From positions 682,001-746,000 of the forward strand of contig NZ_JAESVA010000001.1 in the NCBI RefSeq assembly GCF_020621385.1: a DNA stretch of 64,000 nucleotides. The letters run 5' to 3'. Positions 131-58,436 of this stretch are shown here, piece by piece. Both the position numbers and the translations under genes were made by a program. Under the pieces are notes generated by a model. That model did no database searches and was not told the origin of the DNA. It worked only from the letters and a program-made list of their open reading frames with translations. The DNA is from Acidisoma cellulosilyticum. Its GTDB lineage: Bacteria; Pseudomonadota; Alphaproteobacteria; Acetobacterales; Acetobacteraceae. The number at the start of each line of letters is the position of its first letter. Positions within the stretch are counted from its first letter, which is position 1.

Positions 131-508
131 ATGGACAAAGAATCTCGACTGTCCGGCTTGCGCGTTCTTATTCTTGAGGACGAGGCGCTGCTGGCTATGC
201 TGCTGGAAGATGTCTTGGCTGAATTCGGCTGCGTCCTGGTCGGGCCCTTTAGCCAGAATGACGAGGCCCTTGCCTTCCTCTCGGCCGAGCCTCAAGGCTG
301 TGACATCGGCATTCTGGATGTCAATGTCGCCGGCCATCGCAGCGACGCGGTGGCGGCCGAGTTCGATCGCCTCGGCCTGCCTTTCGTCTTCAGCACGGGT
401 TACGACGAATCCGCGCTGGATGAACGGTGGCGCAGCAAGCCCTGCCTGAGAAAGCCCTTCCGCCCGACCGATCTGGAACGGCTGCTGCTGGACGTTCTGC
501 CGGTTTAG
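131..508 (+). CDS. Single-domain response regulator (receiver only)
   Basis: The 125-residue protein is a stand-alone CheY-like receiver domain with no output domain. The acidic pair is E16-D17 (with E18), the phospho-acceptor is D63 in ILDVNVAG, the switch threonine is T89 in FSTGY and the invariant lysine is K108 in LRKPF. Stand-alone receivers of this type, with the Phe-Ser-Thr-Gly-Tyr signature, usually relay phosphate from HWE/HisKA2 kinases in alphaproteobacteria; that partner is not visible here. The stop codon TAG (506-508) is also the first base triplet of a palindromic repeat, so the element appears to define the 3' end of the gene. Confidence 0.9.
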   Translation: MDKESRLSGLRVLILEDEALLAMLLEDVLAEFGCVLVGPFSQNDEALAFLSAEPQGCDIGILDVNVAGHRSDAVAAEFDRLGLPFVFSTGYDESALDERWRSKPCLRKPFRPTDLERLLLDVLPV

Positions 509-663
509 AGTCTGTCAGAGTTAAGTCGAATCGCGTCAAAAACTCGTCATGCCCGGCCTTGAGCCGGGCATCCATACGCGGTGACGCCCAAACATGGATA
601 GCCGGGTCAAGCCCGGCGATGACGAGGAGAGAGGCTCTTCAGTCAGAGCCTTACAAACTCTAG
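506..663. repeat. Palindromic TIR element, family 1, copy A
   Basis: The left end TAGAGTCTGTCAGAG matches the inverted right end (TAGAGTTTGTAAGG, read on the minus strand). The core has two nested hairpins: ATGCCCGGC (549-557) pairs with GCCGGGCAT (563-571), and GCCGGG pairs with CCCGGC around 601-617. An outer CTCGTCAT/ATGACGAG stem encloses both. It lies between convergent genes and supplies TAG stops to both of them (506-508 on plus, 660-662 on minus). It may also act as a bidirectional terminator. Confidence 0.75.
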
Positions 664-1883
664 CTGTGCCGCCGCTGGCCCGGCGGAAAGCCATGGCTGC
701 GCGCACCCCACGCAACGGCCAGCGCGACCAATAGAAAAATAAGCAGAACCCAGGCGAAGGCGGCAATGCCCCATAGCGGCAACAACACGCCGCCCAGTAA
801 TCCGCCGGCTGCGATCGCCGTGTTCCAGACGACGACATTGATCGACAGCGCGACCTCGGCGCCCGGCCCCGCCGCGTCCGCGAGCGCGGTCTGCAGCAAG
901 GTGGCCGCGCCGCCGAAGCTGAGACCCCAGATCGCCACGCCGACTATCACGAGCGCCGGAGAGAACGGCAGCATGCCGAAAGCCAGCGCCACCGCCGCGA
1001 ACCCGCCAAGGCTCGCCAGCACGGCCGCGCGAAGCGCACGGTCGACCAGCCGACCGGTGACCCAGATACCGAGCAGGGCCGCGACGCCGAAAACCATCAG
1101 CATCAGATCGACGCGCGGCGCGAGGCCAACCGGCGCCAAAAATGGAGCGATATAGGTGTAGAGAAGATTGTGGCCGGTCATCCAGGCCATCACCACACCG
1201 AGGACAGGGATGACACCGGGCGTCGCCAGCACGTGCCGGATGGCCAGCCGGTCGCTCGGCTGCTGGCCGGGATAGTTCGGCATCACGATCAGCACCCAGC
1301 CCGCCAGCAGCAAAGCGAGGCCCGACATGATGGCGAAGGTCGCCCGCCATCCCACTGCCGCGCCAAGCCAGGTGCCCAGCGGCACGCCAATGGACAGCGC
1401 GATCGGCGTGCCGACCATCGCGACAGCCATCGCGCGTCCCTGCAACGGCCTTGCCACCATCCGCCGCGCATAGGCGGCAAGGATGCTCCAGGCGAGACCA
1501 GCCGAGGCGCCGGCCAGGAAGCGAGCCGCGAGCGTGACGCGATAATCGGCCGAGATGGCCGTCACGCCATTGAAGACCAGAAAGCCCGCAATCGTGAGCA
1601 GCAGGACGCGGCGCCTGGGCCATGCGCCGGTCAGGGTATTCAGCGGAATAGCCGCGACCACTGAACCCAAGGCATAGGCGGTGACAAGCTGGCCCGCGAG
1701 GGAGGGCGAGACCGCCAAACCATGGGCAATGCCGGGCAGAAGCCCGGCCGGAATCGTCTCCGTCGCGATGCAGAGAAAACCGGTCATAGCCAGCGCCAGC
1801 AGAGCCGCGATGGGCAAGGTTTCGGCTGCCGGCATCTTGCCGGCGGTCGGGGGAGAGGAATTGCTGGACAAATTGCGACTCAC
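660..1883 (-). CDS. MFS drug/sugar efflux transporter (DHA1, AraJ/NepI-like)
   Basis: The 407-residue protein has about 12 hydrophobic segments and no soluble domain, as expected for an inner-membrane proton-coupled exporter. The first helix carries TETIPAGLLP, typical of the AraJ/YdhP/NepI branch of DHA1. The start used is GTG at 1883, which has a weak ribosome site; an internal ATG at residue 17 (MPAAETLP) is an alternative. The gene is divergent from a TetR regulator, and a candidate operator abuts the start, so substrate-induced derepression is likely. The substrate cannot be told from sequence. The stop TAG lies in the right end of the repeat at 506-663. Confidence 0.88.
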   Translation of the reverse strand: MSRNLSSNSSPPTAGKMPAAETLPIAALLALAMTGFLCIATETIPAGLLPGIAHGLAVSPSLAGQLVTAYALGSVVAAIPLNTLTGAWPRRRVLLLTIAGFLVFNGVTAISADYRVTLAARFLAGASAGLAWSILAAYARRMVARPLQGRAMAVAMVGTPIALSIGVPLGTWLGAAVGWRATFAIMSGLALLLAGWVLIVMPNYPGQQPSDRLAIRHVLATPGVIPVLGVVMAWMTGHNLLYTYIAPFLAPVGLAPRVDLMLMVFGVAALLGIWVTGRLVDRALRAAVLASLGGFAAVALAFGMLPFSPALVIVGVAIWGLSFGGAATLLQTALADAAGPGAEVALSINVVVWNTAIAAGGLLGGVLLPLWGIAAFAWVLLIFLLVALAVAWGARSHGFPPGQRRHS

Positions 1884-1906
1884 TTATGGACTGATCGATC
1901 CATAAA
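1884..1906. promoter_or_regulatory. Candidate TetR operator, site 1 (MFS-proximal)
   Basis: TTATGGA (1884-1890) is inverted as TCCATAA (1899-1905) around a central GATC. The core GGACTGAT recurs in site 2 at 1941. The site sits directly before the GTG start of the MFS gene, where a bound repressor would block its expression. Assignment to the neighbouring TetR protein is inferred from position and symmetry. Confidence 0.5.
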
Positions 1907-1936
1907 TGAGAGCGCCGCAACGCTCTTGTCAATGAC

Positions 1937-1959
1937 TTCCGGACTGATTAGTTCAAAAG
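1937..1959. promoter_or_regulatory. Candidate TetR operator, site 2 (regulator-proximal)
   Basis: GGACTGATTAGTTC (1941-1954) is a near palindrome whose mismatches are all purine-purine or pyrimidine-pyrimidine. It shares GGACTGAT and the flanking TT/CA..AA positions with site 1, 52 bp away (five helical turns). It ends about 22 bp before the tetR start, which suits autorepression. A separate ATGACTT/AAGTCAT inverted pair (1932-1938, 1957-1963) overlaps it. Confidence 0.45.
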
Positions 1960-1980
1960 TCATATCAGGAGATAATCACG

Positions 1981-2580
1981 GTGCGGACAGGACGCCCGCG
2001 CGGCTTCGACCGGGATGCGGCATTGGCAGGGGCGATGAACCTGTTCTGGGCGCAGGGCTATGAGGGCGCATCGCTGGAACAGTTGCGGCGCGCCATGGGT
2101 GGCCTGTCCTCCGCCTCCTTCTATGCCGCCTTCGGATCGAAGGAAGCGCTGTTCCGGGAGGTGCTGGATCTTTATCTCGGCACCCATGGCCAGGTTCTGA
2201 ATGCGCTGCGCGATGAAACGCTATCGCCGCGCGCGCGAATCGAACTGGCACTGCGCCGGTCTGCCTGCATGCAGTCCGATGCGTCGCATCCGCCGGGTTG
2301 TATGATCACCCTGGCCGCGACCATCGGCTCGGCCGATTGCACCGCGATCCAGGCGCTGACAGCGCGGGAAAGGGCCGCGAACCGTCAGGCGATTCGGGCT
2401 TGTGTCGAGGAGGCGGTGGCGGCGGGCGCGCTGCGCGCCGAAACGGATGTTGCAGGGCTCGCCGCCGTCTTCGACGGCTTGTTGTTGGGCCTGTCGCTAC
2501 AGGCGCGAGACGGGGTGCCGGGCAGCGCCATGGACGCCGGTATCACCGCCGTCCTCGCCGCCTGGGATAAGGCTGCCTGA
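1981..2580 (+). CDS. TetR/AcrR family transcriptional regulator
   Basis: The 199-residue protein starts with GTG at 1981, 9 nt after a TCAGGAG-type ribosome site. The N-terminal helix-turn-helix covers residues 10-50 (GRPRGFDRDAAL, then SSASFYAAFGSKEALF), which is the TetR recognition-helix pattern. The C-terminal ligand domain is of the TetR_C 'SACMQSD...PGCMITLAAT' type, often found with efflux or dehydrogenase genes. Its divergent MFS partner and the paired palindromes between them point to local repression of that pump. The inducer is unknown. Confidence 0.9.
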   Translation: MRTGRPRGFDRDAALAGAMNLFWAQGYEGASLEQLRRAMGGLSSASFYAAFGSKEALFREVLDLYLGTHGQVLNALRDETLSPRARIELALRRSACMQSDASHPPGCMITLAATIGSADCTAIQALTARERAANRQAIRACVEEAVAAGALRAETDVAGLAAVFDGLLLGLSLQARDGVPGSAMDAGITAVLAAWDKAA

Positions 2581-2583
2581 CCC

Positions 2584-5160
2584 TTACTCGTCCTCGTCAT
2601 GGGTGCGGCGGACCAGCACCTCGCGCTTGCCGACATGATTGGCCGGCCCGACGATGCCGTCTTTCTCCATCTGCTCGATGAGACGGGCGGCGCGGTTGTA
2701 GCCGATCTGCAGATGGCGCTGGATGAAGCTGGTGCTGGCCTTGCCTTCGCGGGCGACGAGCGCGACGGCCTGATCGAACAACCCCTTCTCGCCTTCGCTG
2801 GCGCCCGGCATGGCCGAAGCACCGCTGCCGCTGCCGCTTGCCTCTTCCTGAGCCTCGGTCACTTCCTCAAGATAATTCGGCTCGCCCTGCTCGCGCAGGA
2901 AGGCGACCGCGTCCTCGACCTCGCGATCCGTCACGAAAGGTCCATGGACGCGGGTGATGCGCCCGCCGCCGGCCATGTACAGCATGTCTCCCTGGCCCAG
3001 CAGCTGTTCCGATCCCTGCTCGCCCAGAATCGTGCGGCTGTCGAACTTGCTGATCACCTGAAAGCTGATGCGGGTCGGGAAGTTGGCCTTGATGGTGCCG
3101 GTGATGACATCGACCGACGGGCGCTGCGTCGCCATGATGACATGGATGCCGGCGGCACGCGCCATCTGCGCCAGACGCTGCACCGCGGCCTCGATCTCCT
3201 TGCCGGCGACCATCATCAGATCGGCCATTTCGTCGATGACGACGACCAGGAAGGGCAGAGGCTCCAGCGCCAGCGCTTGTTCCTCGAAGATCGGACGTCC
3301 GGTCTCGGCATCGAAACCGGTCTGCACGCGGCGGGTGACGACCTCACCGCGCGAGCGGGCCTCGGCCACGCGTTCATTATAGCCGCCGATATTGCGGACG
3401 CTGAGCTGGCTCATGGCGCGATAGCGGCGCTCCATCTCACGCACGGTCCATTTCAGCGCCGTCACCGCTTTGGCGGGTTCCGTCACCACGGGGGCCATGA
3501 GATGCGGAATGCCGTCATAGACGGAGAGTTCCAGCATCTTCGGGTCGATCAGGATCAGGCGGCAATCCTCCGGCGACAGCCGGAAGAGCAGCGACAGGAT
3601 CATGGCATTGATGCCGACGGATTTGCCCGAGCCGGTGGTGCCGGCGACGAGCAGATGCGGCATGCGCGCCAGATCGACGATGACCGGCGAGCCGCCGATA
3701 TCCTTGCCTAGCGCCAGCGGCAGGCGGCCGGCATGGCTGCCCCATTCCTCGACCGACATCAGCTCGCGCAGAAAGACCGTCTCGCGCTTCGCATTCGGCA
3801 CTTCGATACCGATGACATTGCGCCCGGGCACGGTCGCGATGCGCACGGCGGTGACGGACAGGCTACGCGCGACGTCATCGGCCAGGCCGATGACACGGGC
3901 GGAGCGGATGCCAGGTGCCGGTTCCAGTTCGTACAGCGTCACGACCGGACCGGGGCGGATTTCCACGATACTGCCCTGAACGCCGTAGTCCGACAGCACG
4001 GTCTCAAGCAGACGCGCATTGGCTTGCAAGGCTTCAGGGGAAATGCCGACCTCATGCTGGGCCGGCGGGTCCTTCAAAAGCTCGATCGGCGGCAGCTTCC
4101 AACCGGCATGGCTGACCGCCGGCGGCGGCTCAGGCCGCGTCGCCATGCGCGGCTTGTCGCGCTGGGTGCGGATGCGCGTGTCACCGGGGTTGGAAGCGGC
4201 CGCGGCGATGCCGGCCGCGCCGAATCCCGCCGCCGTCAGCTTCCCGCCCGGGGCCGTGCGCGGGGCCGGCGTGGCCATCACCGGCTCACGCCGGGCGTTG
4301 ATCTGGCGATCGTCAGGATCGTCCGGGTCCATCGGCGGCAGGTTGAAGATCGGATGCGGGGACGCGTCGTCGGCGGGTTGCGCGCGGCCCCAGTCGGGGC
4401 GGCCCCAATCCGGCAGCCGGGAAAAGAGACCGCCGAGGCGATGGGTGACGCCGCCAAAACCGAAGCCACCGCGCCCGCTTCCATCATGGCCGTCGCTGCG
4501 CGACGTGCCGACCGATCGCATCGATCGCATGGAAAGGGAGGCAGCGCCCATGGCGCCGGACCGGGCGCGCGATCCGGCGGCGCGCCACTCCATCGCCGTC
4601 AGGCCGAAGCCGAAGGCGACCAGGCCAAGCCCCGCCAGCATCTCGATCACCCAGGCAATCGCCGTGCCGAGCGGACCGAAGGCGGAATGGGCCGTGCCGA
4701 TGATCACATGGCCGACGCCATAGCCGACCGCACCACCCCAGCCGGCTGCCAGCCAGGCCGAGCTGCCGCTGGCCGGGACCGGCAAATTGGCGATTCCGCC
4801 GGCCAGCAGCGGCATCGCCGCGAGCAGCGCCAGGATACGGAAAGAAACATGGGTCAGACGCCGGTTCTCAGCGATACGCCAGCCCCACAGCAGCATGACC
4901 CAGACCGGCAGCGTTCCGACAACGCCGAACCCCTGCCAGGACAGATCGGCGATGACGGCACCGGTCGGGCCAGCCAGGTTTCGCACGACGGTTCCGGCCG
5001 TGTCGAAGGATGCGTCGGCGGGATGATAGGAGGCGAGTGCGACGCCAAGCCCGATCCCCGCGAAGCCGAGCAGCAGCCCTACCAGCGACGCGAGCCGGCG
5101 GCGCAGCACCGCCAGCATGGTCGGGGAGATAAAGCGGCGGGCTTCGGCGATGGCGGCCAT
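2584..5160 (-). CDS. ftsK: DNA translocase FtsK
   Basis: The 858-residue septal DNA pump clears and aligns chromosome dimers at division. The N-terminus has about four membrane helices (residues 20-190), followed by a Pro/Arg-rich cytoplasmic linker. The RecA-like motor has Walker [11 protein letters not shown] near residue 505 and Walker [12 protein letters not shown] near 640. The C-terminal gamma winged helix (about 785-850, with [23 protein letters not shown]) reads KOPS sites. The start at 5160 was chosen because GGAAAGGAT precedes that ATG; the frame stays open 20 codons further upstream. The linker is short compared with E. coli FtsK (1329 aa), as is common in alphaproteobacteria. Confidence 0.96.
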
Positions 5161-5266
5161 CGGTATCCTTTCCAATGATGCCGGTGGTCCCCGGACAACA
5201 CTCGATCGAGGCCGGGCCATGGTATCAGAAGGCTAATCCGGCGCAGGACTTTCCGCCGGCAAATAT

Positions 5267-5308
5267 GGAGAGGGGGCCGTTCAGCCTTGCGGCAGCAGCC
5301 CCCTCTCC
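5267..5308 (-). terminator. Hairpin terminator downstream of the 5335-5952 gene
   Basis: GGAGAGGGGGC (5267-5277) pairs perfectly with GCCCCCTCTCC (5298-5308). On the minus strand the stem is followed by ATATTTG, a modest T-rich stretch. It lies between the secreted hypothetical gene and ftsK, so ftsK probably has its own promoter. Confidence 0.55.
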
Positions 5309-5334
5309 GTCACGACCAAAGCCGAGGCATCGGC

Positions 5335-12960: not shown

Positions 12961-13066
12961 CGTCGCCCGCGGACTTGTTCCGCGGGTCTACCGGCGTTGG
13001 CGCCTCAACGCCGTCGCGGCGCCTCGTCGGGGAGTAGATGCGCGGAACAAGTCCGCGCCCGACGAT
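12961..13066. repeat. REP-like palindromic element without CTAG ends
   Basis: The left arm CCGCGGACTTGTTCCGCGG and the right arm GCGCGGAACAAGTCCGCGC are each hairpins and also pair with each other. The spacer carries GTCTACC and GGAGTAGA, which pair as part of the outer stem. The same architecture forms the core of the family 1 copy at 24894-25064 and the element at about 58609-58718. It fills the gap between cysI and the ArsB-type gene and ends 6 nt before that gene's ATG. Confidence 0.65.
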
Positions 13067-13071: not shown

Positions 13072-14313
13072 ATGACGTCCCTCACCTGGCTGATCGTCAT
13101 CCTCGCGACCGCCGGGGTTATCATCCGACCCTGGCGTATCCCCGAAGCCGTCTGGGCGGTATCGGGTGCGCTTATTCTGGTGCTGCTGGGCCTTGTGCCC
13201 ATTGGGCAAGCGTTGCACGCCGTCGGGCGCGGCACCGATGTCTATCTGTTCCTGATCGGCATGATGCTGCTGAGCGAAGTCGCCCGGCGCGAAGGCCTGT
13301 TCGATTGGCTCGCCGCCTTCGCCGTGCGCCAGGCACGCGGATCCTCCCGCAAGCTTTTCCTGCTCATTTATGCGGTCGGCACTGTCGTTACGGCCTTTCT
13401 GTCCAATGACGCGACGGCGGTGGTGATGACGCCGGCGGTTTTCGCGGCCGCCAAGCATGCGCGCGCCGAACCGCTGCCCTATCTGTTCGTCTGTGCCTTC
13501 ATCGCCAATGCGGCGAGTTTTCTGCTGCCCATTTCCAATCCCGCCAATCTCGTTCTCTACGCTGACCATGTGCCGCCGCTCTTCACCTGGCTCGGGCATT
13601 TTTTCATGCCGTCCCTCGCGGCCGTGGGCGCCACGCTTCTCGCGCTGCTGATCATCGAGCGGAAGCATCTGGCGGCCCCGATCCAATCCGAGATTCCGCA
13701 GCCGAAGCTGTCGCCGGGCGGCTTCGCCGCCGCCATCGGCATCGTGATGACAGCGATCCTGCTGCTGACGGCGTCCGCCGCCGATATCCAGCTTGGCCTG
13801 CCCACCGCCATTGCGGGCGGGCTCACCACCGGTTTCGTGCTCTGGCGCAAACGTGAGGCGCCTTGGGCGACGCTCCGCGGCATCTCCTGGCTTGTCCTGC
13901 CGCTGGTCGCGGGATTGTTCGTGCTCGTCGAGGGTCTGCGGCAGACAGGCGCTTTGGCGGCGCTGGCCACCTGGCTGCATCACGCGGCCGCCCATTCGGT
14001 GCAGGCGACCGCCTGGGGGTCCGGCATCCTGCTCGCCCTGGTTTGCAACGTCATGAACAACCTGCCGGCCGGGGTTGTCGCCAGTTCCACCATCGCGTCC
14101 GGGCATCTGCCGCAATCCGTGACCGATTCGCTGCTGATAGGCGTCGATCTCGGTCCCAATCTCTCGATCACCGGATCGCTCGCGACCATCCTGTGGCTGA
14201 CGGCGATCCGGCGGGAGGGCGAGGACGTGACCTTCAAAACCTTCCTGATGCGCGGCGCCATCGTGATGCCGCCGGCCCTGGTGCTGGCGCTGGCCGGGTT
14301 GCTGCTGCGATAG
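13072..14313 (+). CDS. ArsB-type ion transporter (arsenical pump membrane protein family)
   Basis: The 413-residue polytopic membrane protein of the ion-transporter superfamily carries typical ArsB blocks: FLSNDATAVVMTPAVFAAAK, PISNPANLVLYADHVPP, NVMNNLPAG and GVDLGPNLSITGSLATILWL. Family members export arsenite or exchange Na+ or organic anions; no arsR or arsC is nearby, so the substrate is open, and with sulfite reduction upstream an anion such as sulfite is an alternative. ATG 13072 is the first start after the repeat and lacks a clear Shine-Dalgarno. Longer upstream frames read through the repeat and are not credible. The stop TAG begins a possible repeat relic. Confidence 0.88.
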   Translation: MTSLTWLIVILATAGVIIRPWRIPEAVWAVSGALILVLLGLVPIGQALHAVGRGTDVYLFLIGMMLLSEVARREGLFDWLAAFAVRQARGSSRKLFLLIYAVGTVVTAFLSNDATAVVMTPAVFAAAKHARAEPLPYLFVCAFIANAASFLLPISNPANLVLYADHVPPLFTWLGHFFMPSLAAVGATLLALLIIERKHLAAPIQSEIPQPKLSPGGFAAAIGIVMTAILLLTASAADIQLGLPTAIAGGLTTGFVLWRKREAPWATLRGISWLVLPLVAGLFVLVEGLRQTGALAALATWLHHAAAHSVQATAWGSGILLALVCNVMNNLPAGVVASSTIASGHLPQSVTDSLLIGVDLGPNLSITGSLATILWLTAIRREGEDVTFKTFLMRGAIVMPPALVLALAGLLLR

Positions 14314-24817: not shown

Positions 24818-24829
24818 CCTCTGTCAGGT

Positions 24830-24899
24830 CTAGATTATTGTTTTTGTGAGCATCTTCACACAGTCAGACGATTCCCTCTGACTGTGATCTGCTCTAGAG
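24830..24899. repeat. Family 2 repeat, copy 1 (68-70 bp, CTAG-bounded)
   Basis: The element is CTAG-bounded and, read on the minus strand, matches 47287-47354 with only 3 differences in 67 positions. It contains the stem CACAGTCAGA/TCTGACTGTG and an AT-rich half (AACAATAAT on the minus strand). Its right CTAGAG end is shared with the left end of the family 1 element that follows. Confidence 0.8.
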
Positions 24900-25064
24900 T
24901 CCGTCAGGTTTAGTTGAAAACGCCACCAAATCTGTCGTGCGCGGGCCCCGACCCGCGCATCTACCCGGCGTAGCAAGCGATCGGCCGGCTGGCGCCGCGG
25001 CGGGTAGGTCCGCGCAACAAGTGCGCGGATGACAAATTATCTATCAAAACCTGACAGACTCTAG
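24894..25064. repeat. Palindromic TIR element, family 1, copy B
   Basis: This is the best-preserved copy. The left end CTAGAGTCCGTCAGGTTT and the inverted right end CTAGAGTCTGTCAGGTTT differ at one position over 18 bp. Inside is a double hairpin with GCGCGGG/CCCGCGC and CCGCGC/GCGCGG arms and internal CTACCC/GGGTAG pairing. The right-hand CTAG gives the minus-strand gene 25061-25363 its stop codon. Confidence 0.85.
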
Positions 25065-25363
25065 CCGGGCGCCTGCATCAGGTGGACATCGGCCTGGGCG
25101 AGGACGTGCTTGGCCGCTTCCAGGAAGGTCTTCAGCGCGTCGCCCTGGTTATGGGCATCCAGCGCCGCCTGATCCTGCCATTTCTCGATAACGACCAGCG
25201 TATCGGCGCCGAATTTGACAGAGGAATGGGCAAGATCGATGACCGGCTGATATTCGATGCAGCCCGGCTCGGCCCGCACATCGTCAATAACCGCGTTCAA
25301 AGCGGCCAGTAGAGCAGCGCGGTGGCCGATCTTGGCGGTCAAAATAGCGACGACGTGAATCAT
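25061..25363 (-). CDS. Antibiotic biosynthesis monooxygenase (ABM) domain protein
   Basis: The 100-residue ferredoxin-like dimeric alpha/beta barrel starts MIHVVAILTAKIGHRAALLAALNAVIDDVRAEPGCIEYQ and continues with LVVIEKWQDQAALDAHNQGDALKTFLE, the usual ABM/YgiN layout. Members include quinol monooxygenases and haem-degrading enzymes, but many have no known substrate. ATG 25363 was preferred to an upstream TTG/ATG because GGGGAAAAAG precedes it. The stop codon lies within the terminal CTAG of the preceding repeat, so the last residues may have been shaped by that element. Confidence 0.87.
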   Translation of the reverse strand: MIHVVAILTAKIGHRAALLAALNAVIDDVRAEPGCIEYQPVIDLAHSSVKFGADTLVVIEKWQDQAALDAHNQGDALKTFLEAAKHVLAQADVHLMQAPG

Positions 25364-44607: not shown

Positions 44608-47289
44608 TTGGCGAGATGGACCGTGAGCGGCCCAGGATTTTGGTCGGGCTTATCGCGCGCCAGTCGCAGGCTTCTGCTGTCCGGCGCGGTTCTGCTGCTT
44701 GCCATGATGGCAATGATCGGCCTCGCTATCGGAAGCATGCGCCTATCCACGCTGAATCTGGCCCAACACAGCATCGAACGAATCAGCTTTGCCGTCGCGG
44801 AACAATCGACCCGTGCCATACAGGGCGTCGATTTGATCCTGACCAATTTGCGTGACGAGGCGGAAAGACGGCACCCAACGCCATCATCCCTCGCGCCGCT
44901 GCTGCAAGATCCAGCCTCGAAAATCCGGAGCGACCTCAGAGACGCCGTTCTTCCTCAAGCTGATGGCTTTGCCATCATCGATGCGAAAGGCGATATTCTT
45001 GTCCATACATCGGCCTGGCCAGACAGCCTTGATCCCGGGCATGATCATGCTCGCCTGAATTACTTACGAATAAACAACGACAATCATATTTTTATCAGCC
45101 TGCCCTTCTGGAATGATTCCCGGCAGGATTGGTTTGTCTATATCGCCCGCCGCATCAACGATGCCGACGGCAATTACAGCGGGGCCGTGATCGGGGTCGT
45201 CAGCCTTGGTTATTTCCACAATTTCTATCGCACGCTGGTCGACGACGACCAGTTTGCCGTCACGCTTTTCAATCGCCAGGGCATTACCCTGGCAAGCTAT
45301 CCTTTGGCGCTGCCCACCGGCCAAAGACCTGCCCGTCTCAGCAAACTCTGGGACCAGGTCGTATTCAGCGGCCAGGAACGCAGCTTCGAAGGGTCGGGGC
45401 TGACGGTCCAAGGTCGTCGCCTCATCGCGGTTCGTCCGATCGCCGCCTATCCTCTTGTCGTGAATGTCAGCATCGCCAAGGCCGCAGCACTCGCGACCTG
45501 GCAGAAACAGGCCTTGCTCGCCCTGGCTGGCGCCGTCTGTGCCACGCTTTGCACGCTGCTTCTGCTGCGCGCCGTCATGCTGCAGTTGCAGCGGCTGGAA
45601 CAATCCGAATTCTCGCTCGCAGAACAATCGGCACGACTGGCCACGACCCTTGATCACATCACGGACGGGGTCGTCATGATCGATGCCGAGGACCGCATCT
45701 CGGTCTGCAATCAGCGCGTCCTGGAATTGCTGGATCTGCCCGCAGGGCTGATGTCGTCCCGCCCTACGCTGGAAACCGTCCTCGCCTATCACCGCGCGAT
45801 CGGCGAATACCCCAACGAAGCGGTCGCCGATCATCTGCTGCAACAGCTTCGGGCGCGGACACCGAGTGTTGTCGAGCGACATCGGCCGAATGGCACCATT
45901 CTGGAAGTGCAGACCTTGCCGCTGCCGGAGGGCGGGCTAATCCGCACTTACACCGACATTACGGAGCGCCGCCGTTCGGAAGCGCAAATCCGTTACCTCG
46001 CCCATCACGATCCGCTGACCCATCTCGCCAATCGCGCTTTATTCCGCGACAGGCTGGAACAGGATATCGCCCGCGCGGATGCGGCCGGTCACCGGCTTGC
46101 GCTGCTCTATATCGATCTCGACCGTTTCAAATTCATCAACGACATGCGCGGCCATGAGGCCGGCGACAAGCTTCTGGTCGAAGTCGGACGCCGCATGCGC
46201 GCGATCACCAGCACGTCGGAAACGGTCGCCCGCATGGGGGGCGATGAATTTGCCGTCATCCTGCCGCTCGACCGGCCTGGGCGCACCGCTGCCGATCTGG
46301 CGAACGGCATTCTGCGCACGCTGCAGCGGCCGATGGAGATGGTCTCGGCCAGCTTTCACGTCAGTCTCTCGATCGGTATCGCGCATTATCCGGACCACGC
46401 CGGCAGTGCCGAGGATCTGCTGCGCAATGCCGATATCGCGCTCTATCAGGCGAAGACGGACGGCGTCGGCTTATGGCGGGAGTTCGATGCCACCATGCAA
46501 GCGCGTCAGGCCCTGCTGTTCGAGCGCGAACAGGATCTGCGCAATGCCTTGGGGAAGAAGCAATTCACACTCGCCTATCAACCCATTCTCGATACCGGCA
46601 CCAGACAAAGCGTCGGTTGCGAAGCCCTGCTACGCTGGACCCATCCGACCCATGGCAGCGTTCCGCCGTCTGAATTCGTCGGCCTGATGGAAAAGCTCGG
46701 TCTTATCGTCCCGATCGGCCGCTGGGTGTTGGAAACCGCTTGTCTGGAAGCCGTCCATTGGCCCGCGGATACGCATGTCGCGGTCAATCTCTCCCCCATT
46801 CAAATGAACGATGAGGGGCTCGTCGACGAAGTCAAAGCCATCCTCATCCGCAGCGGCCTGCCGGCGCACCGGCTGACGCTGGAAGTGACGGAGACAAGCC
46901 TGCTGGAAGACAACCCTATCGTGCGCAACACCATGGATGCGCTGCGCGCCATCGGCATCCGTTTCAGCTTGGACGATTTCGGCACCGGCCATTCGGGACT
47001 CGGCTATCTGCGCCGTTTCCCTTTCGACGGCATCAAGATCGACAAGCTCTTCATACAGGATATGGTCGAACAGCCGGACGCCGCCGCGATCGTCAATGCT
47101 CTGCTCGCCGTCAGCGCCGAACTCAATCTTGATGTCGTCGCCGAAGGGGTGGAGACGGAGGCACAGTATGAGGCGCTCAGGCAGCGCCACTGTCAGTATG
47201 TGCAGGGCCATTATTTCGCGAAACCCTTGGCCGACACGGAGGCCCGCCGCTTCATCCTGACGCACCGCACAGCACCAATTCCGCTGTAG
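44608..47289 (+). CDS. Membrane GGDEF-EAL protein with periplasmic sensor and PAS domain
   Basis: The 893-residue cyclic-di-GMP enzyme starts with TTG 44608 after GGAGAG. Helix 1 is near residues 18-38, a dCache-like periplasmic sensor spans about 40-300 and helix 2 is near 300-325. A PAS domain (about 345-455, ATTLDHITDGVVMIDAEDRISVCN) follows. The GGDEF domain has DPLTHLANR near 467 and an intact RMGGDEFAVIL near 544. The EAL domain has CEALLRW near 671 and DDFGTGHSGLGYLRRFPFDGIKID near 788, so both activities may be present. The stop TAG is the first base triplet of a family 2 repeat. Confidence 0.94.
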   Translation: MARWTVSGPGFWSGLSRASRRLLLSGAVLLLAMMAMIGLAIGSMRLSTLNLAQHSIERISFAVAEQSTRAIQGVDLILTNLRDEAERRHPTPSSLAPLLQDPASKIRSDLRDAVLPQADGFAIIDAKGDILVHTSAWPDSLDPGHDHARLNYLRINNDNHIFISLPFWNDSRQDWFVYIARRINDADGNYSGAVIGVVSLGYFHNFYRTLVDDDQFAVTLFNRQGITLASYPLALPTGQRPARLSKLWDQVVFSGQERSFEGSGLTVQGRRLIAVRPIAAYPLVVNVSIAKAAALATWQKQALLALAGAVCATLCTLLLLRAVMLQLQRLEQSEFSLAEQSARLATTLDHITDGVVMIDAEDRISVCNQRVLELLDLPAGLMSSRPTLETVLAYHRAIGEYPNEAVADHLLQQLRARTPSVVERHRPNGTILEVQTLPLPEGGLIRTYTDITERRRSEAQIRYLAHHDPLTHLANRALFRDRLEQDIARADAAGHRLALLYIDLDRFKFINDMRGHEAGDKLLVEVGRRMRAITSTSETVARMGGDEFAVILPLDRPGRTAADLANGILRTLQRPMEMVSASFHVSLSIGIAHYPDHAGSAEDLLRNADIALYQAKTDGVGLWREFDATMQARQALLFEREQDLRNALGKKQFTLAYQPILDTGTRQSVGCEALLRWTHPTHGSVPPSEFVGLMEKLGLIVPIGRWVLETACLEAVHWPADTHVAVNLSPIQMNDEGLVDEVKAILIRSGLPAHRLTLEVTETSLLEDNPIVRNTMDALRAIGIRFSLDDFGTGHSGLGYLRRFPFDGIKIDKLFIQDMVEQPDAAAIVNALLAVSAELNLDVVAEGVETEAQYEALRQRHCQYVQGHYFAKPLADTEARRFILTHRTAPIPL

Positions 47290-47354
47290 AGCAGATCACA
47301 GTCAGATGGAATCATCTGACTGTGTGAAGATGCTCGCAAAAACAATAATCTAGA
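47287..47354. repeat. Family 2 repeat, copy 2
   Basis: TAGAGCAGATCACAG to ATAATCTAG matches the minus strand of 24830-24899 with 3 differences in 67. The internal stem CACAGTCAGATG/CATCTGACTGTG is a perfect 12 bp around a GAAT loop. Its first three bases are the stop codon of the GGDEF-EAL gene. Confidence 0.8.
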
Positions 47355-47393
47355 GCGGTATCTGTGAGCGTAAGCGAGCAGGAAACGCTCTAG
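47350..47393. repeat. Short CTAG-bounded linker module
   Basis: CTAGAGCG (47350-47357) is inverted as CGCTCTAG (47386-47393), enclosing 28 bp with a GAGCGTAAGCGAGC segment. It shares its CTAG ends with the family 2 element on the left and the family 1 element on the right, so three modules are joined at CTAG sites. Confidence 0.55.
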
Positions 47394-47552
47394 AGTTTGT
47401 CTGATTTTAACTGAAGCTTGTCCCTAATATCGTCATGCCCGGCCCCCGAGCCGGGCATCCATTCGTTGGGGCGCCCAAGGACTGGATGACCGGGTCAAGC
47501 CCGGCCATGACGGGGCAAGGGGTCGTTTCCACCTAAACCTGACGGACTCTAG
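47390..47552. repeat. Palindromic TIR element, family 1, copy C
   Basis: The left end CTAGAGTTTGTCTGATTT and the inverted right end CTAGAGTCCGTCAGGTTT flank a double hairpin: ATGCCCGGC/GCCGGGCAT on the left and CCGGG/CCCGG on the right, with an outer CGTCAT/ATGACG pair. The right-hand CTAG provides the stop codon of the minus-strand gene 47549-47908. Confidence 0.8.
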
Positions 47553-47908
47553 ATGCCCAGCGGTGGCTCCGGAATGCCAAGCTCTTCGCGCAGATGACCG
47601 AAACGGTCAGGGTCGAGATAACGACCGTCCTCATAAAGCCGTTTGAGCGCGGCCAGGCCCGTCTGCGTGAAGTACGCGCGCTGGCCAAGGTCTTCGGCCG
47701 GCATATCGATCAACCCGCGTTCGATCATGGCGCCCAGCACCGGCGGGATCTTGGGCTCGCCCCGCCGCGATCCGCTGGTCCAGAGATTGATGCGGATGCC
47801 CTTGGCCAAGGACGGGCGCACACCGAAGGCCGCAGCCAATTCCTGACGAATGAAGCTCCGCTCGGCCGCGGTGAAGGGTACGGCTCCAGGCGGTTGCCTT
47901 TCGGTCAT
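47549..47908 (-). CDS. Hypothetical protein coupled to the glucosidase gene
   Basis: The 119-residue soluble protein has no family I can name. It contains FTAAERSFIRQELAAAFGVRPSLAKGIRINLWTSGSRRGEPKIPPVLGAMIERGLIDM, which has a winged-helix-like rhythm, and a C-terminal AYFTQTGLAALKRLYEDGRYLDPDRFGHLREELG block. Its start overlaps the glucosidase stop by 4 nt, so the two are cotranslated. A DNA-binding role is only a guess. The stop lies in the terminal CTAG of repeat copy C. Confidence 0.75.
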   Translation of the reverse strand: MTERQPPGAVPFTAAERSFIRQELAAAFGVRPSLAKGIRINLWTSGSRRGEPKIPPVLGAMIERGLIDMPAEDLGQRAYFTQTGLAALKRLYEDGRYLDPDRFGHLREELGIPEPPLGI

Positions 47909-52885: not shown

Positions 52886-52950
52886 AGCCGAGGCCAAGCC
52901 ACGCGATTTCTATGCTGCGCCATAGAGCGACGAAAAAGGGAAACGCGGCC

Positions 52951-53151: not shown

Positions 53152-53166
53152 GCTTGGCTGAAGACA

Positions 53167-53196
53167 GGGCGTCCCACGCGTGGGACGCCCTTGTTT
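53167..53196. terminator. Terminator between DUF2934 and SDR genes
   Basis: GGGCGTCCCACG (53167-53178) pairs with CGTGGGACGCCC (53179-53190), a perfect 24-bp palindrome followed on the plus strand by TTGTTT. Lying between convergent genes, it can serve both. Confidence 0.8.
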
Positions 53197-53197
53197 G

Positions 53198-53980
53198 CTA
53201 GCCCATCGTAGAATTGAAGGCGCCGCCGTCGAGCAGCAGATTCTGCCCGACGATATAGCCGGCATGGGCCGAGCATAGGAACGCGCAGGCACGGCCGAAT
53301 TCTTCCGGCTCGCCGAAACGCCCTGTCGGGTTCAGCTGGGCGCGGGCGGCCATCTCCTCCTCAACCGAATGACCGGCATTCTTGGCCGAACCTGCCATGG
53401 TCGTGCGCAGCCGATCCGTGGTGAAGGGTCCCGGCAGCAGATTGTTGATCGTCACATTATGCTTGGCCACCTGGCGCGACAGACCACCGACAAATCCGGT
53501 GAGCCCGGCACGCGCGCCGTTGCTCATGCCAAGGGCCGCAATCGGGGACTTCACCGAAGCCGAGGTGATGTTGACGATACGACCGAAGCGCCGGCCGATC
53601 ATGCCGTCGACGACCGCCTTCATCATGGCGATGGGTGAGAGCATATTCGCGTCCAAAGCGCGCACCCAATCGTCCCGCTCCCAGTTACGGAAGTCACCGG
53701 GCGGCGGACCGCCGGCATTATTCACCAGAATATCGGGGTTCGGACAAACCGCGAGGGCTGCCGCGCGTCCGGCCTCGGTCGTGATATCCCCAGGGGCGAT
53801 GTCGATGCGGCCGCCCGTTTCATGAGCAATTGCTCGCGCTGTCTGCAACAGCGTCTCGGCGTCTCGTCCCGTGATCGTGACGTCCACGCCTTCGCGAGCC
53901 AAAGCCGTGGCGCAGGCCCGTCCCAGGCCTTTGCTCGCGGCACAAACAATCGCTCGCCGTCCTTTGAGCTCTAAATCCAT
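53198..53980 (-). CDS. SDR-family protein lacking the canonical Tyr-Lys pair
   Basis: The 260-residue Rossmann protein has the TGxxxGxG-equivalent CAASKGLGRACATAL near residue 14 and NNAGG near residue 88. At the active site the order is NITSASVKSPIAALGMSNGARAGL, in which the usual Tyr-x3-Lys is replaced by Ser-x3-Arg. A recognised SDR subgroup shares this LSNGAR pattern, so the change is not a sequencing slip, but the chemistry must differ. ATG 53980 follows AGAAGAGA. It is divergent from the mannitol-dehydrogenase family gene. Confidence 0.9.
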   Translation of the reverse strand: MDLELKGRRAIVCAASKGLGRACATALAREGVDVTITGRDAETLLQTARAIAHETGGRIDIAPGDITTEAGRAAALAVCPNPDILVNNAGGPPPGDFRNWERDDWVRALDANMLSPIAMMKAVVDGMIGRRFGRIVNITSASVKSPIAALGMSNGARAGLTGFVGGLSRQVAKHNVTINNLLPGPFTTDRLRTTMAGSAKNAGHSVEEEMAARAQLNPTGRFGEPEEFGRACAFLCSAHAGYIVGQNLLLDGGAFNSTMG

Positions 53981-54094
53981 GACAATCTCTTCTCCAAACT
54001 GCGTTGAGACGGTATTGCTGGGGCGAAGGGCCGGCGGCAAGACCGGCTCTGACTATGCGTGCCGGATAAAGACGGACCGTTTTGGGAGAAGTCC

Positions 54095-55576
54095 ATGATA
54101 AAACTCAGCAACGCCGCGCTGAGCGAGCTGCCGCCTGGCATCCAATGGGCGGGTTATGACCGCTCGCGCCTGACGGCTGGTATCGTTCACTTCAGCGTGG
54201 GGAATTTTCACCGCGCCCATCAGGCCGTCTATCTTGACCGTTTGATCGCTGGCGGCGGCCATGACGACTGGGCGCTCTGCGGGGTCGGGCTGCTCGACGA
54301 CCCGCGCGAGCGGGCCAAGGCCGCCGCCTTCCCGGCGCAGGATTGCCTCTACACCCTCACCGTCTGCCCGCCCCATGGCGAGCCGGAAATCCACGTCATC
54401 GGGTCGATCGTCGAATACCTCTTCGCGCCCGATGATCCAGAAGCGGTCCTGGCGAAGCTCTGCGATCCCGCCATCCGCATCGTCACGATGACGCTGACCG
54501 AAGGCGGCTATAATATCGACGACGAAACCCAGGAATTTAAAACCGGCGCGCCGGACATCGTCCACGACCTCGCCAATCCGACGACGCCGCGCACCGCCTT
54601 CGGCTATGTCGCGGAAGCGCTGGCCCGCCGCCGGGCTGCTGGCCTGCCCGCCTTCACCGTGCAGTCCTGCGACAATCTTCGCCATAACGGCCATGTCGCC
54701 AAAACGGCCTTCGTCGGCTTCGCTCGCGCGCGGGACCCGGAACTGGCCGCCTGGATGGAGCAGGACGTCGACTTCCCGAACAGCATGGTGGACCGCATCA
54801 CGCCTGCGACCTCGGACGCCGACCGCACGCGTCTGAATACGGCGAGCGATATCGAGGATGAGATCCCGGTCTTCTGCGAGGATTTCATCCAATGGGTGGT
54901 GCAGGATCAATTCCGCCTCGGCCGCCCGGCATGGGAAAAAGTCGATGCGCAGATCACCGACGATGTCTGGGCCTATGAGCAGATCAAGCTGCGCATGCTC
55001 AACTCCTCGCACAGCATGCTGGCCTTTCCGGGCACCAATGCCGGCTACCGCCTGGTGCATGAGACGGTGGCCGACCCGCTGATCGCGCAGCTGCTGTTCG
55101 ATTACTGGAACAAGGACGTCATCCCGCTGTTGCAGGCGCCGCCCGGCATGTCGCTGGAAGGCTATCGGGACAAGCTGATGGAGCGCTATTCCAATCCGGC
55201 GACGCGGGACCAGACCATCCGCATCGCGACCGACGGCGCGTCGCGCATTCCGATCTTCTCGGGCGACACCATCCGCACGATCCTGGAACAAGGCGGGGAT
55301 TTCCGCAGGCTTGCCTTCCTGGTGGCAAGCTTCGCTTTCTGCCTGGGCGGCGTGGACGACAAGGGCGTGCATTTCTCGACCCCCGAGCCGCGCCTGTCGG
55401 CCGCCGAACATGCGACGGCACAGGACCCTGACCCGATGGCTTTCCTCACCTTGCCGATCTTCGCCGGCCTGGGCATGGAGAGTTCACCGGACTTCGTGGC
55501 GACCTTCCAGGAATACCGGGAATCGCTCACCGCCAATGGCACGCTTGGCACGCTGAAAGACGTCCTTGCCGGCTAG
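54095..55576 (+). CDS. Mannitol dehydrogenase family oxidoreductase
   Basis: The 493-residue NAD(P)-dependent polyol/hexuronate dehydrogenase has the N-terminal IVHFSVGNFHRAHQAVYLDRL (GxGxFHRAHxAxY) near residue 30, TLTEGGYN near 135, and the catalytic K298-x4-N303-x2-H306 in KLRMLNSSHSMLAFPG. The family includes mannitol 2-dehydrogenase, fructuronate reductase and tagaturonate reductase; the residues seen do not choose among them. ATG 54095 follows GGGAGAAG. A strong terminator follows. Confidence 0.94.
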   Translation: MIKLSNAALSELPPGIQWAGYDRSRLTAGIVHFSVGNFHRAHQAVYLDRLIAGGGHDDWALCGVGLLDDPRERAKAAAFPAQDCLYTLTVCPPHGEPEIHVIGSIVEYLFAPDDPEAVLAKLCDPAIRIVTMTLTEGGYNIDDETQEFKTGAPDIVHDLANPTTPRTAFGYVAEALARRRAAGLPAFTVQSCDNLRHNGHVAKTAFVGFARARDPELAAWMEQDVDFPNSMVDRITPATSDADRTRLNTASDIEDEIPVFCEDFIQWVVQDQFRLGRPAWEKVDAQITDDVWAYEQIKLRMLNSSHSMLAFPGTNAGYRLVHETVADPLIAQLLFDYWNKDVIPLLQAPPGMSLEGYRDKLMERYSNPATRDQTIRIATDGASRIPIFSGDTIRTILEQGGDFRRLAFLVASFAFCLGGVDDKGVHFSTPEPRLSAAEHATAQDPDPMAFLTLPIFAGLGMESSPDFVATFQEYRESLTANGTLGTLKDVLAG

Positions 55577-55597
55577 GCCGGTATCGTTTCAGGATAA

Positions 55598-55626
55598 GGC
55601 CCGGGATGATGTCCCGGGCCTTTTTT
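55598..55626 (+). terminator. Rho-independent terminator
   Basis: GGCCCGGGA (55598-55606) pairs with TCCCGGGCC (55612-55620) around ATGATG... loop bases and is followed by TTTTTT. It ends the polyol dehydrogenase transcript and is the most canonical terminator in the window. Confidence 0.92.
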
Positions 55627-55710
55627 GTTTCCAGGGCTTGGTCTCGCGCCTTGCCTGCTTAACCAAGAATAGCCGGCCCCAAAAATTGGCCGGCAAGGGA
55701 GATCGCGTCC

Positions 55711-56595
55711 ATGAATCCATTGGGCATCCACGCCTTCGTCTGGTCGGGTGGGTCGACACCGGATGATCTCAACCGGTCGCTCGATCGCTCGGTCGAGACC
55801 GGATACAGCCTCATCGAATTCCCGCGCCTCGATCCGAAAAAGTTCGATGTCCCGGCTTTCGCGAAAAGCCTGGCCGCGCAGCGGATGGGCATTGCCGTCA
55901 CCATGGGCCTGTCGCCGGCGCATGATATTTCGAGCGAGGATGCCGACACGGTGGCCAAGGGCGAGGCCGTTCTCCGCGAAGCCGTGTCGGTCGCGCGGGA
56001 TCTGGGCGCCACCAAACTCGGTGGCATTCTATTCTCGGCACACGGCAAATACATGTCGCTGCCGTCCGCCCAAGGGCGACAGAACAGCATCGACACCTTG
56101 CGGAAAGTCGCGCGCTACGCGGCCGATGCCGGGGTCACGCTCAACCTCGAAATCGTCAATCGTTTCGAGACCAATCTGTTGAACACGACCGCGCAGGGCT
56201 TGCAGTTCATCGCAGAAATCGGTGAGCCGAATGTCTATCTGCATCTCGATACCTTCCATATGAATATCGAGGAGGCGAACCCGGCCGACGCCATTCGCGC
56301 GGCAGGCGACCGGCTTGGCTATTTCCATGTCGGCGAAAGCAATCGCGGCTTTCTGGGTGCCGGAACTATCCAGTACTCACCGATCTTCGATGCGCTGCTC
56401 GACAACGGCTATACGGATACGATCACCTTCGAATCCTTCTCGTCCGCCGTCGTTGACCGCGATCTTTCGATCATCACCGGCATCTGGCGCAATACCTGGG
56501 ATGATAATGTGGCTCTGGCGAAACATGCGCGAAGCTTCATCACCGACCACTTGGAAAGTGCGGCGCGCCGTCGCAAAATAACGCGCACACCGTAA
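55711..56595 (+). CDS. Sugar-phosphate isomerase/epimerase (D-tagatose 3-epimerase-like)
   Basis: The 294-residue AP-endonuclease-2-type TIM barrel has metal ligands that are readable as Glu in LNLEIVNRFE near residue 150, Asp in LHLDTFHMNIEE near 184, His in YFHVGESNRG near 210 and Glu in ITFESFSS near 246. Relatives interconvert ketohexoses such as psicose, tagatose and fructose. ATG 55711 is preceded by AAGGGAG. With the polyol dehydrogenase before it and a permease after it, it probably belongs to a sugar or polyol route. Confidence 0.9.
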   Translation: MNPLGIHAFVWSGGSTPDDLNRSLDRSVETGYSLIEFPRLDPKKFDVPAFAKSLAAQRMGIAVTMGLSPAHDISSEDADTVAKGEAVLREAVSVARDLGATKLGGILFSAHGKYMSLPSAQGRQNSIDTLRKVARYAADAGVTLNLEIVNRFETNLLNTTAQGLQFIAEIGEPNVYLHLDTFHMNIEEANPADAIRAAGDRLGYFHVGESNRGFLGAGTIQYSPIFDALLDNGYTDTITFESFSSAVVDRDLSIITGIWRNTWDDNVALAKHARSFITDHLESAARRRKITRTP

Positions 56596-56616
56596 CTTTA
56601 CCGAAATGAGACCGCC

Positions 56617-57969
56617 ATGGCCTTGCGCCGCAATCTGGGCCTGGTGGAGGTCATCGGCCTTTCACTGTCGATGATCGCACCGACAACGGCCATGGCGTTC
56701 AACGTCACCCTGACGGCCGGCGCCGCCGGGGTGGCAGCCCCCCTCGCCTTCGCGCTCAGCATTCCGGGACTGATCATCGTCGGCCTGTGCTTCGTCGCTT
56801 TCGCAAGACGCGTGGCGAGTGCGGGCTCGGCCTATGCCTATATCCGGCAGGAATTCGGCGCGCGCGCCGGTTTCCTGGCCGGCTGGGCCTTGCTGTTGAC
56901 CTACCTCACCTTCGGCACCGGCATTGCCGTGCTGGTCGGCAGTTTTCTCGATGCGGCGCTGGGCAATTACCATCTCGGCCTGCCGCATTTTTGGATTCTG
57001 CACGGCACGCTCGCCATTCTGCTCGGCATCGCCTTTGCCTATCGCGACATGAAACTGGCGACGCGGCTGATGCTGGCGCTGGAGGGGATTTCGGTTCTCG
57101 CCATCATCGTGCTCGGGATCCTCGTTCTCGTCTCGGTCGGAAAGACGACCGGCCTGCCGATCACGCCCTTCCTGCCGGATCATCATTTCGGCTGGGCCGG
57201 CATCGGCTATGCGCTGGTCTTCGCCGTGCTGTCCTTCGCCGGTTTCGAAAGTGCGACGACTTTGGGCGAGGAAGCGGCCAACCCCGCCCGCGCCATTCCG
57301 ATCGCGGTGATCGCGACCGTCATCGGTGCCGGCATCTTCTATGTCTTCGCGGCCTATACCCAGGTCATCGGCTTCGGCCTCGACAATATGAAGGGCCTCG
57401 CCAATGCGGCGGCCCCGCTCAATACGCTGGCGCTGAAATACGGGTCGCGCGATTTCGCGACCGTGCTCGATCTGGCGACCGCCATCTCCGCCTTCTCCTG
57501 CGTCCTCGCCTGCGTCAGCTCGGCCGCGCGCTTGCTGTTTTCGCTGGGACGCGCCGGGTTGGCGCCGGCGCTCGGCGTCGTGAACCCGACCTACGGCACG
57601 CCCAGCCGCGCGGTGCTGGCGGTCGGCGCCGTGATGCTGGCGGGTGCGCTAATCCTGGCGCCGCAGATAGGCGCCAATGACTATTACGGCGATATGGGCA
57701 CGATCGGCGTGCTGGCCCTTATCCTCGTCTATGTCGGCGTGGCGGCCGCGGCCGGGCGCTATGCCTGGCAGCGAAAGAGCCTGGTCTGGGCCTCGTTCGG
57801 CCTGCTCGGCACAATCTTCATGCTCTGGCCGCTCTATAATTCCATCTATCCGGTGCCGGCTTTCCCCGGAAACCTCTGGCCCTATCTGGTCATCGCCTAT
57901 CTTCTGCTCGGCCTTGGCATTCTGGCCTGTCGCCCCGGTCTCGGCCGGTACGTGCTGGAGACCGAATAG
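56617..57969 (+). CDS. APC-superfamily permease
   Basis: The 450-residue transporter has about 12 helices. The first, LVEVIGLSLSMIAPTTAMAFNVTL, is typical of the amino acid-polyamine-organocation family, and SAGSAYAYIRQEFGARAGFLAGWALLLTYL is the helix 2-3 region. FAGFESATTLGEEAANPARAIPIAV near residue 215 is the conserved EEA loop of helix 6. It starts 21 nt after the epimerase stop and is probably cotranscribed with it. Amino acids are the usual substrates, so the link to sugar enzymes is uncertain. Confidence 0.92.
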   Translation: MALRRNLGLVEVIGLSLSMIAPTTAMAFNVTLTAGAAGVAAPLAFALSIPGLIIVGLCFVAFARRVASAGSAYAYIRQEFGARAGFLAGWALLLTYLTFGTGIAVLVGSFLDAALGNYHLGLPHFWILHGTLAILLGIAFAYRDMKLATRLMLALEGISVLAIIVLGILVLVSVGKTTGLPITPFLPDHHFGWAGIGYALVFAVLSFAGFESATTLGEEAANPARAIPIAVIATVIGAGIFYVFAAYTQVIGFGLDNMKGLANAAAPLNTLALKYGSRDFATVLDLATAISAFSCVLACVSSAARLLFSLGRAGLAPALGVVNPTYGTPSRAVLAVGAVMLAGALILAPQIGANDYYGDMGTIGVLALILVYVGVAAAAGRYAWQRKSLVWASFGLLGTIFMLWPLYNSIYPVPAFPGNLWPYLVIAYLLLGLGILACRPGLGRYVLETE

Positions 57970-58106
57970 GCAGGGCGATTGAGCGCGCAGCATTACCTGC
58001 GCGGTCACCATAAGACCGCGATCGACCAAGGCTCGCGGCGGTCAAAAAAAAATCAACTCGACATAGGAACGTTCTCCAGGCAGCCTGCCTGACGAGAGGG
58101 ACCAGC

Positions 58107-58436
58107 ATGAATAGGTCGGGCAGCCAGTCATCCCTTGCAAAGGGTGATGGAGGGGACGATTTTGACAGTATGGATGAAATCTTAGCCTTAACCGCCAGGG
58201 TCGATGGCTTCGACAAGCGCATTGACCGCATGGAGACCAAACTCGATCAGGTCGATACGCGCCTGCGTGCGCTTGAGACAGGGGTGGCCAATATGTCCGG
58301 GAAGATCGATGTCCTTACCGGGCAAATCGTCGGGCGCTTGCCGACATGGTGGCAGCTCCCGGCGGTTATCGCGGGAACCGTCGTTTTACTGACGGCGCTG
58401 TATGCCGCGGCAAAGCACCTGCATCTTTTCAGCTAG
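58107..58436 (+). CDS. Small coiled-coil protein with a C-terminal membrane anchor
   Basis: The 109-residue protein has heptad-like repeats (residues 22-70, IDRMETKLDQVDTRLRALETGVANMSGKIDVL) that predict a coiled coil, then a C-terminal membrane helix (WWQLPAVIAGTVVLLTALYAA). It looks like phage-holin-associated or DUF1640-like anchors, but I cannot assign a family. ATG 58107 follows a GAGAGGGACC leader. The stop TAG lies in the left CTAG end of repeat copy D. Confidence 0.7.
   Translation: MNRSGSQSSLAKGDGGDDFDSMDEILALTARVDGFDKRIDRMETKLDQVDTRLRALETGVANMSGKIDVLTGQIVGRLPTWWQLPAVIAGTVVLLTALYAAAKHLHLFS

Follow-up and report, generated by a model that had tools for sequence, protein, structure and literature searches.

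Why should a repeat end exactly where a gene ends? In a window of 64,000 nucleotides (nt) of Acidisoma cellulosilyticum (contig NZ_JAESVA010000001.1, positions 682,001 to 746,000, the whole stretch of DNA analysed here), the TAG stop codons of six genes are the terminal TAG of an interspersed repeat, at 506-508 (+), 660-662 (-), 25061-25063 (-), 47287-47289 (+), 47549-47551 (-) and 58434-58436 (+). A preliminary description of the window had noticed this coincidence, and our gene caller closes a gene at all six places. The observation is sound, and the genome-wide signal is stronger than that in the window. The repeats belong to two families, here called P and Q. Our explanation, to which we give a probability of roughly 0.8, is that they are non-autonomous miniature transposons lodged in the most harmless YTAR sites (Y, pyrimidine; R, purine), that their ends rebuild the stop codon and leave proteins unchanged, and that tolerance of insertion makes most of the bias. 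From the preliminary description, the peak at stop codons and insertion at CTAG or stop-proximal sites survive; a truncating 3'-end module and a repeat relic at 14311 do not. The copies in the window, and the genes that end in them, are as follows.

506 to 662, unstranded: copy A, P-type element from TA to TA; target TTAG; stops of the genes at 131-508 (+) and 660-1835 (-)
24829 to 24896, minus: copy B, partial Q element of 68 bp (base pairs), 95.6% identical to Q copies over 68 bp; adjoins a P element, left TA in common
24895 to 25063, unstranded: copy B, P element of 169 bp; right end is the stop of the ABM-domain gene at 25061-25363 (-)
47287 to 47392, plus: copy C, Q element of 106 bp; left end is the stop of the GGDEF-EAL gene at 44713-47289 (+)
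47391 to 47551, minus: copy C, P element of 161 bp, TA in common with the Q element; right end is the stop of the gene at 47549-47908 (-)
58434 to 58583, plus: copy D, P-type element in decay and diverged at its right end; the left end is intact and supplies the stop of the gene that ends at 58436 (+)
131 to 508, plus: gene ending in copy A; Response_reg match below cut-off
660 to 1835, minus: MFS gene ending in copy A (gene caller, Pfam)
25061 to 25363, minus: ABM-domain gene ending in copy B (gene caller, Pfam)
44713 to 47289, plus: GGDEF-EAL gene ending in copy C (gene caller, Pfam)
47549 to 47908, minus: gene ending in copy C; C-terminal reading frame conserved in L171, L172 and L176
58170 to 58436, plus: gene ending in copy D, with an uncertain start that may lie at 58107

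The elements and their placement at stop codons

Both families were traced through the 6.0-Mb genome by their ends. One end pattern, TAGAGTCYGTCAGRKTTARKT, has 123 matches with 3 mismatches allowed, and the other, CTAGAGCAGATCACAGTCAGA, has 75; read backwards, neither has any. Copy analysis drew on 140 regions around the pattern matches listed, which take in a part of the P places, and the counts are of copies with both ends recognisable, so that decayed copies such as A and D fall outside them. Among the matches listed there are 126 such copies, 65 of them P and 61 of them Q; they make up 122 insertion units, including four P-Q pairs with a TA in common. These full copies range from 83 to 198 bp and hold no transposase gene. 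P elements are mostly 161-198 bp long, their single-element units being dominated by lengths of 161 (26 units), 170 (9) and 198 bp (7), and Q elements mostly 105-106 bp (41 single-element units of 106 bp, 13 of 105 bp). Consensus identity is 0.94-0.99, and the P and Q consensus sequences fold strongly. One end pattern matches both ends of an element in inverted orientation; the ends read TAG in 232 of 252 cases and TAA in 7. P and Q differ in sequence except for the first bases, TAGAG, which are common to both. With terminal inverted repeats, target duplication, short length and many copies, they are two families of miniature inverted-repeat transposable elements (MITEs), whose mobility we infer from sites that are empty in relatives. 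Genome-wide, GANTC, described as the CcrM methylation motif in PMC2229807, lies 2 bases from the target TA in 81 of 130 P ends and in 0 of 122 Q ends.

Placement was read after joining the flanks of each unit and calling genes on the joined sequence, with our own hexamer caller trained on this genome and independent of annotation. Of the 122 units, 63 fall in the stop codon of a single gene and 7 in a stop that two convergent genes have in common; 49 are intergenic and 3 are in genes. The distance from stop to element thus peaks at zero, as anticipated from the window, with 70 of 122 units lying exactly in a stop once the empty site is restored by joining; counted on the sequence as it stands, 82 gene ends fall on 72 units. 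A first background was biased because its regions had been chosen for holding elements, and the main comparison therefore uses an unselected 400 kb of contig 2, which still holds 7 occupied sites of its own. There, 773 usable YTAR sites divide into 60 stops, 355 intergenic sites and 358 sites in genes, and only 66 of 412 stops are YTAR. The 112 insertions at YTAR comprise 66 stops, 43 intergenic sites, 2 sites in genes and 1 at a region edge. Against this background, stop versus intergenic YTAR gives a Fisher odds ratio of 9.1 (p = 6e-21), by which chance placement is rejected.

The rate of insertion per estimated genome site is 0.073 at the stop, 0.017-0.022 at 1-49 nt downstream, 0.011 at 50-99 nt and 0.0024 beyond 400 nt; rather than lacking a peak at zero, which would have spoken against the original observation, the rate per site is highest there. 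Occupancy by site class was taken from element-bearing regions, so its absolute rates are inflated. It falls from shared stops (7 of 12) and convergent stops (39 of 86) through convergent intergenic sites (14 of 73) and tandem stops (20 of 110) to tandem intergenic (25 of 355), divergent (4 of 188) and in-gene sites (2 of 511). Convergent over tandem over divergent is the order expected from tolerance to insertion.

Within the window, the two convergent genes at copy A close in a single element, just as first described; one TTAG target serves both, and the joined site reads TAG on the plus strand and TAA on the minus strand. The best full-copy match of this copy is 76.8% over 125 bp; its right end has diverged beyond what the pattern recognises, which keeps it out of the genome-wide counts. 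Of the six proteins that end at repeats, three pass the Pfam cut-off (MFS, ABM and GGDEF/EAL), and the other three have sub-threshold matches only. A seventh place, 14311-14313, had been put forward as the start of a possible relic; it reads ATAG, and 80 bases taken there have no match to the full-copy library at E ≤ 1.

At 24829-25063 and 47287-47551, P and Q are stacked end to end with a TA in common. In such pairs, later insertions seem to use the YTAR left by an earlier one. Two further stretches resemble the P core. A remnant at 58595-58711 (88.6% to P copies over 114 bp) lies between copy D and a tRNA-Leu at 58725-58811 (minus), and a G+C-rich inverted repeat at 12961-13064, with 31-bp arms at 87%, is P-core-like and ends 8 bases before the called start of the gene at 13072-14313.

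Target site and reading frames

TA bounds 111 of the 122 units on both sides, and the joined empty sites fit Y-TA-R. The outer bases around TA...TA make CTAG in 49 of the 122 units, TTAG in 25, CTAA in 25, TTAA in 6 and other combinations in 17. A left TA is preceded by C in 78 cases, T in 32 and another base in 4; a right TA is followed by G in 83, A in 34 and another base in 2. In 30 of the 111 units bounded by TA on both sides, an A outside the right end goes with a G inside the left, and in 2 both positions are A. The R is therefore not copied, and the duplication is of the 2-bp TA only. Judged from these flanks, the target is Y-TA-R, with CTAG the most frequent, and TA alone is duplicated. 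The earlier suggestion that insertion targets CTAG or stop-proximal sites holds in this sense: the target is YTAR, CTAG is its commonest form, and the rate per site peaks at the stop and drops downstream.

How could such insertions leave genes intact? A transposase of the IS630/Tc1-mariner type would insert P and Q at the palindromic Y-TA-R and duplicate TA alone. Where the TA opens a codon, TAR would already be a stop, TAA or TAG, and since the element starts with G and ends with C, the codon after insertion would be TAG on either strand. An in-frame TAR being a stop already, and the first base of the element restoring it, the ends of most genes would stay in place. The other YTAR sites of a compact genome lie largely in genes or near promoters, where insertion is costlier. 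Surviving copies would then accumulate in stop codons, chiefly between convergent genes, where one target may serve both, and each insertion would leave new YTAR-like ends on which elements could stack.

The joined sites agree with this scheme. An element forms 82 gene ends in 72 units, and in 78 of the 82 the joined site has an in-frame stop at that place. Comparison with homologues gives a similar picture. In A. silvae (L171), which has 85-87% DNA identity over larger syntenic segments and 74-76% over the genes ending at copies C-left and D, all three window gene ends compared (copies C-left, C-right and D) are in line. At C-left and D the orthologue ends at the same residue with a native CTAG, an outcome which the preliminary description itself had named as refuting its reading. 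The gene right of copy C has the same end residue in A. silvae, with TGA as its stop, and ends ~8 residues earlier in Acidisoma sp. L85 and ~2 later in L172.

Beyond the window comparison, homologues were sought for 27 of 60 available gene-end pieces; 22 were found and 5 were not. They are best hits, presumed orthologous: 21 come from genome G002, which is probably the same genome as the A. silvae of L171 and so not independent evidence, and 1 from G001 (L165), with the L084 site counted twice for its two convergent genes. Length is identical in 17 of 22, and the rest differ by +3, +3, +2, -1 and -4; one of the +3 homologues has an upstream indel and identical last residues. Homologue stops are TAR in 15 of 22 (p = 0.0014), where the background has 143 of 412, and in 12 of 19 once the three inside G002 elements are set aside (p = 0.011 against the same background).

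Tolerance, targeting and the transposase

So, is the bias made by selection or by the insertion itself? The mechanism is probably an ordinary one, of TA-specific miniature transposons in harmless YTAR sites with ends that rebuild the stop, and tolerance of insertion, a form of selection, would be the main source of the bias. The alternative that survives best is active targeting, in which something about gene 3' ends, be it the DNA structure there or the termination of transcription or translation, draws in the transposase or element before any selection. We consider it unlikely. Stops do exceed sites 1-49 nt downstream, with a crude odds ratio of 3.7 (p = 9e-6). Adjusted within 0-49 nt for tetranucleotide, the GC content of each flank and the distance from the nearest 5' end, the ratio is 2.0 (0.96-4.7), so that the 9-fold excess of stops over intergenic YTAR shrinks to ~2-fold near gene ends; most of it is associated with tetranucleotide, gene-side GC and promoter distance. 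The rate also falls gradually downstream and is higher in convergent than in tandem places and in tandem than in divergent ones, in line with what insertion there would be expected to cost.

Two sites bear on targeting in another way. At L084 (2501-2607), the shared stop of a convergent pair holds a Q element here and a P-like element in G002 (L211, 1798-1970), and at L054 (2501-2684) a stop codon with an element here holds an element with a different core in G002 (L242). Different cores in one stop suggest independent hits, as would be expected if such sites were sought out.

Several further results weigh against a reading in which tolerance and rebuilt stops make the whole pattern. In a logistic model of noncoding and stop sites with tetranucleotide, GC and orientation, the stop keeps an odds ratio of 4.3 (2.5-7.7), beside terms of 2.6 for CTAG, 0.32 for TTAA, 1.6 per 10% of flank GC, 2.1 for convergent and 0.23 for divergent placement. 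The youngest copies are the most stop-biased: taking high identity to the nearest other copy as a rough proxy of youth, 32 of 44 copies with the closest neighbours are at stops, against 19 of 41 of the most diverged (trend p = 0.013). Slow purging would predict the opposite, which speaks for an early bias; decay can also hide the stops of old copies. In genome G140, only 4 of 19 left ends are stops. Four of the 82 gene ends have a stop only through the element (L045, which is the right gene of copy C, L096, L120 and L170). The stop is TGA, which is not a target, in 7 of 22 homologues, so those stops changed in one lineage by ordinary mutation, the comparison being silent on which. Finally, the regions examined hold no transposase gene between P or Q ends.

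The class of the transposase that would move P and Q in trans is suggested by the target. The elements have the IS630/Tc1-mariner combination of a TA target, a 2-bp duplication and a preference for CTAG; Tenzen and Ohtsubo (1991) reportedly found, going by their title, that IS630 prefers TA in 5'-CTAG-3'. Members of IS630/Tc1-mariner are described as inserting at TA with duplication of TA (PMC2170065), and P and Q are alike in both respects but have no transposase gene between their ends. An insertion sequence (IS) with the cognate transposase would be predicted to end in GAGTCYGTCAGG or GAGCAGATC. Four DDE_3 matches lie on small contigs, with no bracketing P or Q ends recognised, and no autonomous partner with P or Q ends was recognised either.

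That an IS5-type enzyme moves P and Q instead is more doubtful still than targeting. The IS5 target is given as Py-T-A-Pu with CTAG commonest (PMC5493358), much as here, but IS5 duplicates 4 bp. P and Q duplicate only TA, and the 30 of 111 units with A outside the right end and G inside the left do not fit a 4-bp YTAR duplication.

That the elements are exact 3'-end modules which shorten reading frames and terminate transcripts is very improbable: 82 gene ends do coincide with element ends, and the consensus sequences fold strongly, but 78 of the 82 joined sites already have the stop, 17 of 22 homologues are of the same length, so that unchanged proteins without insertion are largely borne out between species, no terminator-like site appears in the three element stretches scanned, and genes abut either element end equally (orientation 15:18 for P, 14:12 for Q). 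This equal use of both ends also rejects a directional module. Rfam has no match at the three loci scanned.

Relatives, comparable repeats and significance

In a sample of 150 genomes of the family, a set apart from G001 and G002, a P 27-mer is confined to this genome; relaxing the P pattern gives 17 matches in G002 and 1 in G001. The element end is the gene stop in 3 of 9 loci read in G002. Relatives of Q occur in 9 of the 150 genomes, this one included. Two of these, G053 and G140, were read in 40 regions for 93 pattern matches, by left ends only, as many right ends were unrecognised. A pyrimidine (C or T) stands outside 40 of the 41 left ends read, and a left end forms a stop in 12 of 22 cases in G053 and in 4 of 19 in G140, so the strength of the stop bias varies between genomes. 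In G053, L317 carries on its minus strand, at about 2000-2220, a tandem array of four copies of a ~56-bp half Q unit; single units occur elsewhere. A plasmid collection searched with P gave no match, and with Q gave matches in two Komagataeibacter plasmids over 56% of the query.

Small repeats that encode stop codons have a precedent in the BOX repeats of Streptococcus pneumoniae, for which PMC3049150 describes 58 overlapping coding sequences, 36 of them with a stop codon supplied by the repeat at their very 3' end and with no strong evidence of truncation relative to orthologues. BOX and P/Q are alike as small interspersed repeats that encode stops without shortening proteins, a likeness of behaviour and not of membership. 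BOX repeats are modular and longer, at 67-637 bp, and the account in PMC3049150 on which this comparison by description draws gives no target rule or site-by-site enrichment. The RUP of S. pneumoniae and other TA-ended bacterial MITEs are closer in form, being of ~107 bp with terminal inverted repeats, a TA target and high copy number, and IS630-Spn1 is proposed to move RUP in trans (PMC2229807, PMC3049150). RUP differs from P and Q in sequence and host, and these accounts place it near IS elements, not in stop codons. The CIR repeats of Caulobacter and Brucella, of ~110 bp as described in PMC2229807, have in common with P and Q their alphaproteobacterial hosts and TA ends and, with P, their GANTC sites. 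Compared by description only, the CIR GANTC sits at the hairpin loop, whereas that of P sits at the element end and Q ends have none there. Beyond the BOX precedent, we recognised no other work, in a mainly open-access literature, that quantifies repeats in stop codons.

Could the ends themselves be adapted to stop codons? A purine start rebuilds TAG or TAA on either strand, stops would be a renewable harmless home, and the transposition complex may favour gene 3' ends. We hold this to be a speculative possibility, with odds well below even; the TAGAG start that P and Q have in common despite unlike sequences, and the different cores at one stop in two species, would fit it. If it is true, TA-specific elements of compact genomes should begin with G or A above chance and be over-represented at TAR stops. 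The residual excess at exact stops offers a measurable handle by which selection and targeting may be separated.

To TA-specific elements, stop codons seem to offer a safe harbour. The finding would explain how repeats can encode stop codons without changing proteins, and it cautions against calling such gene ends truncations. It also provides a simple rule, testable across genomes, for where TA-specific miniature transposons may accumulate without harm.

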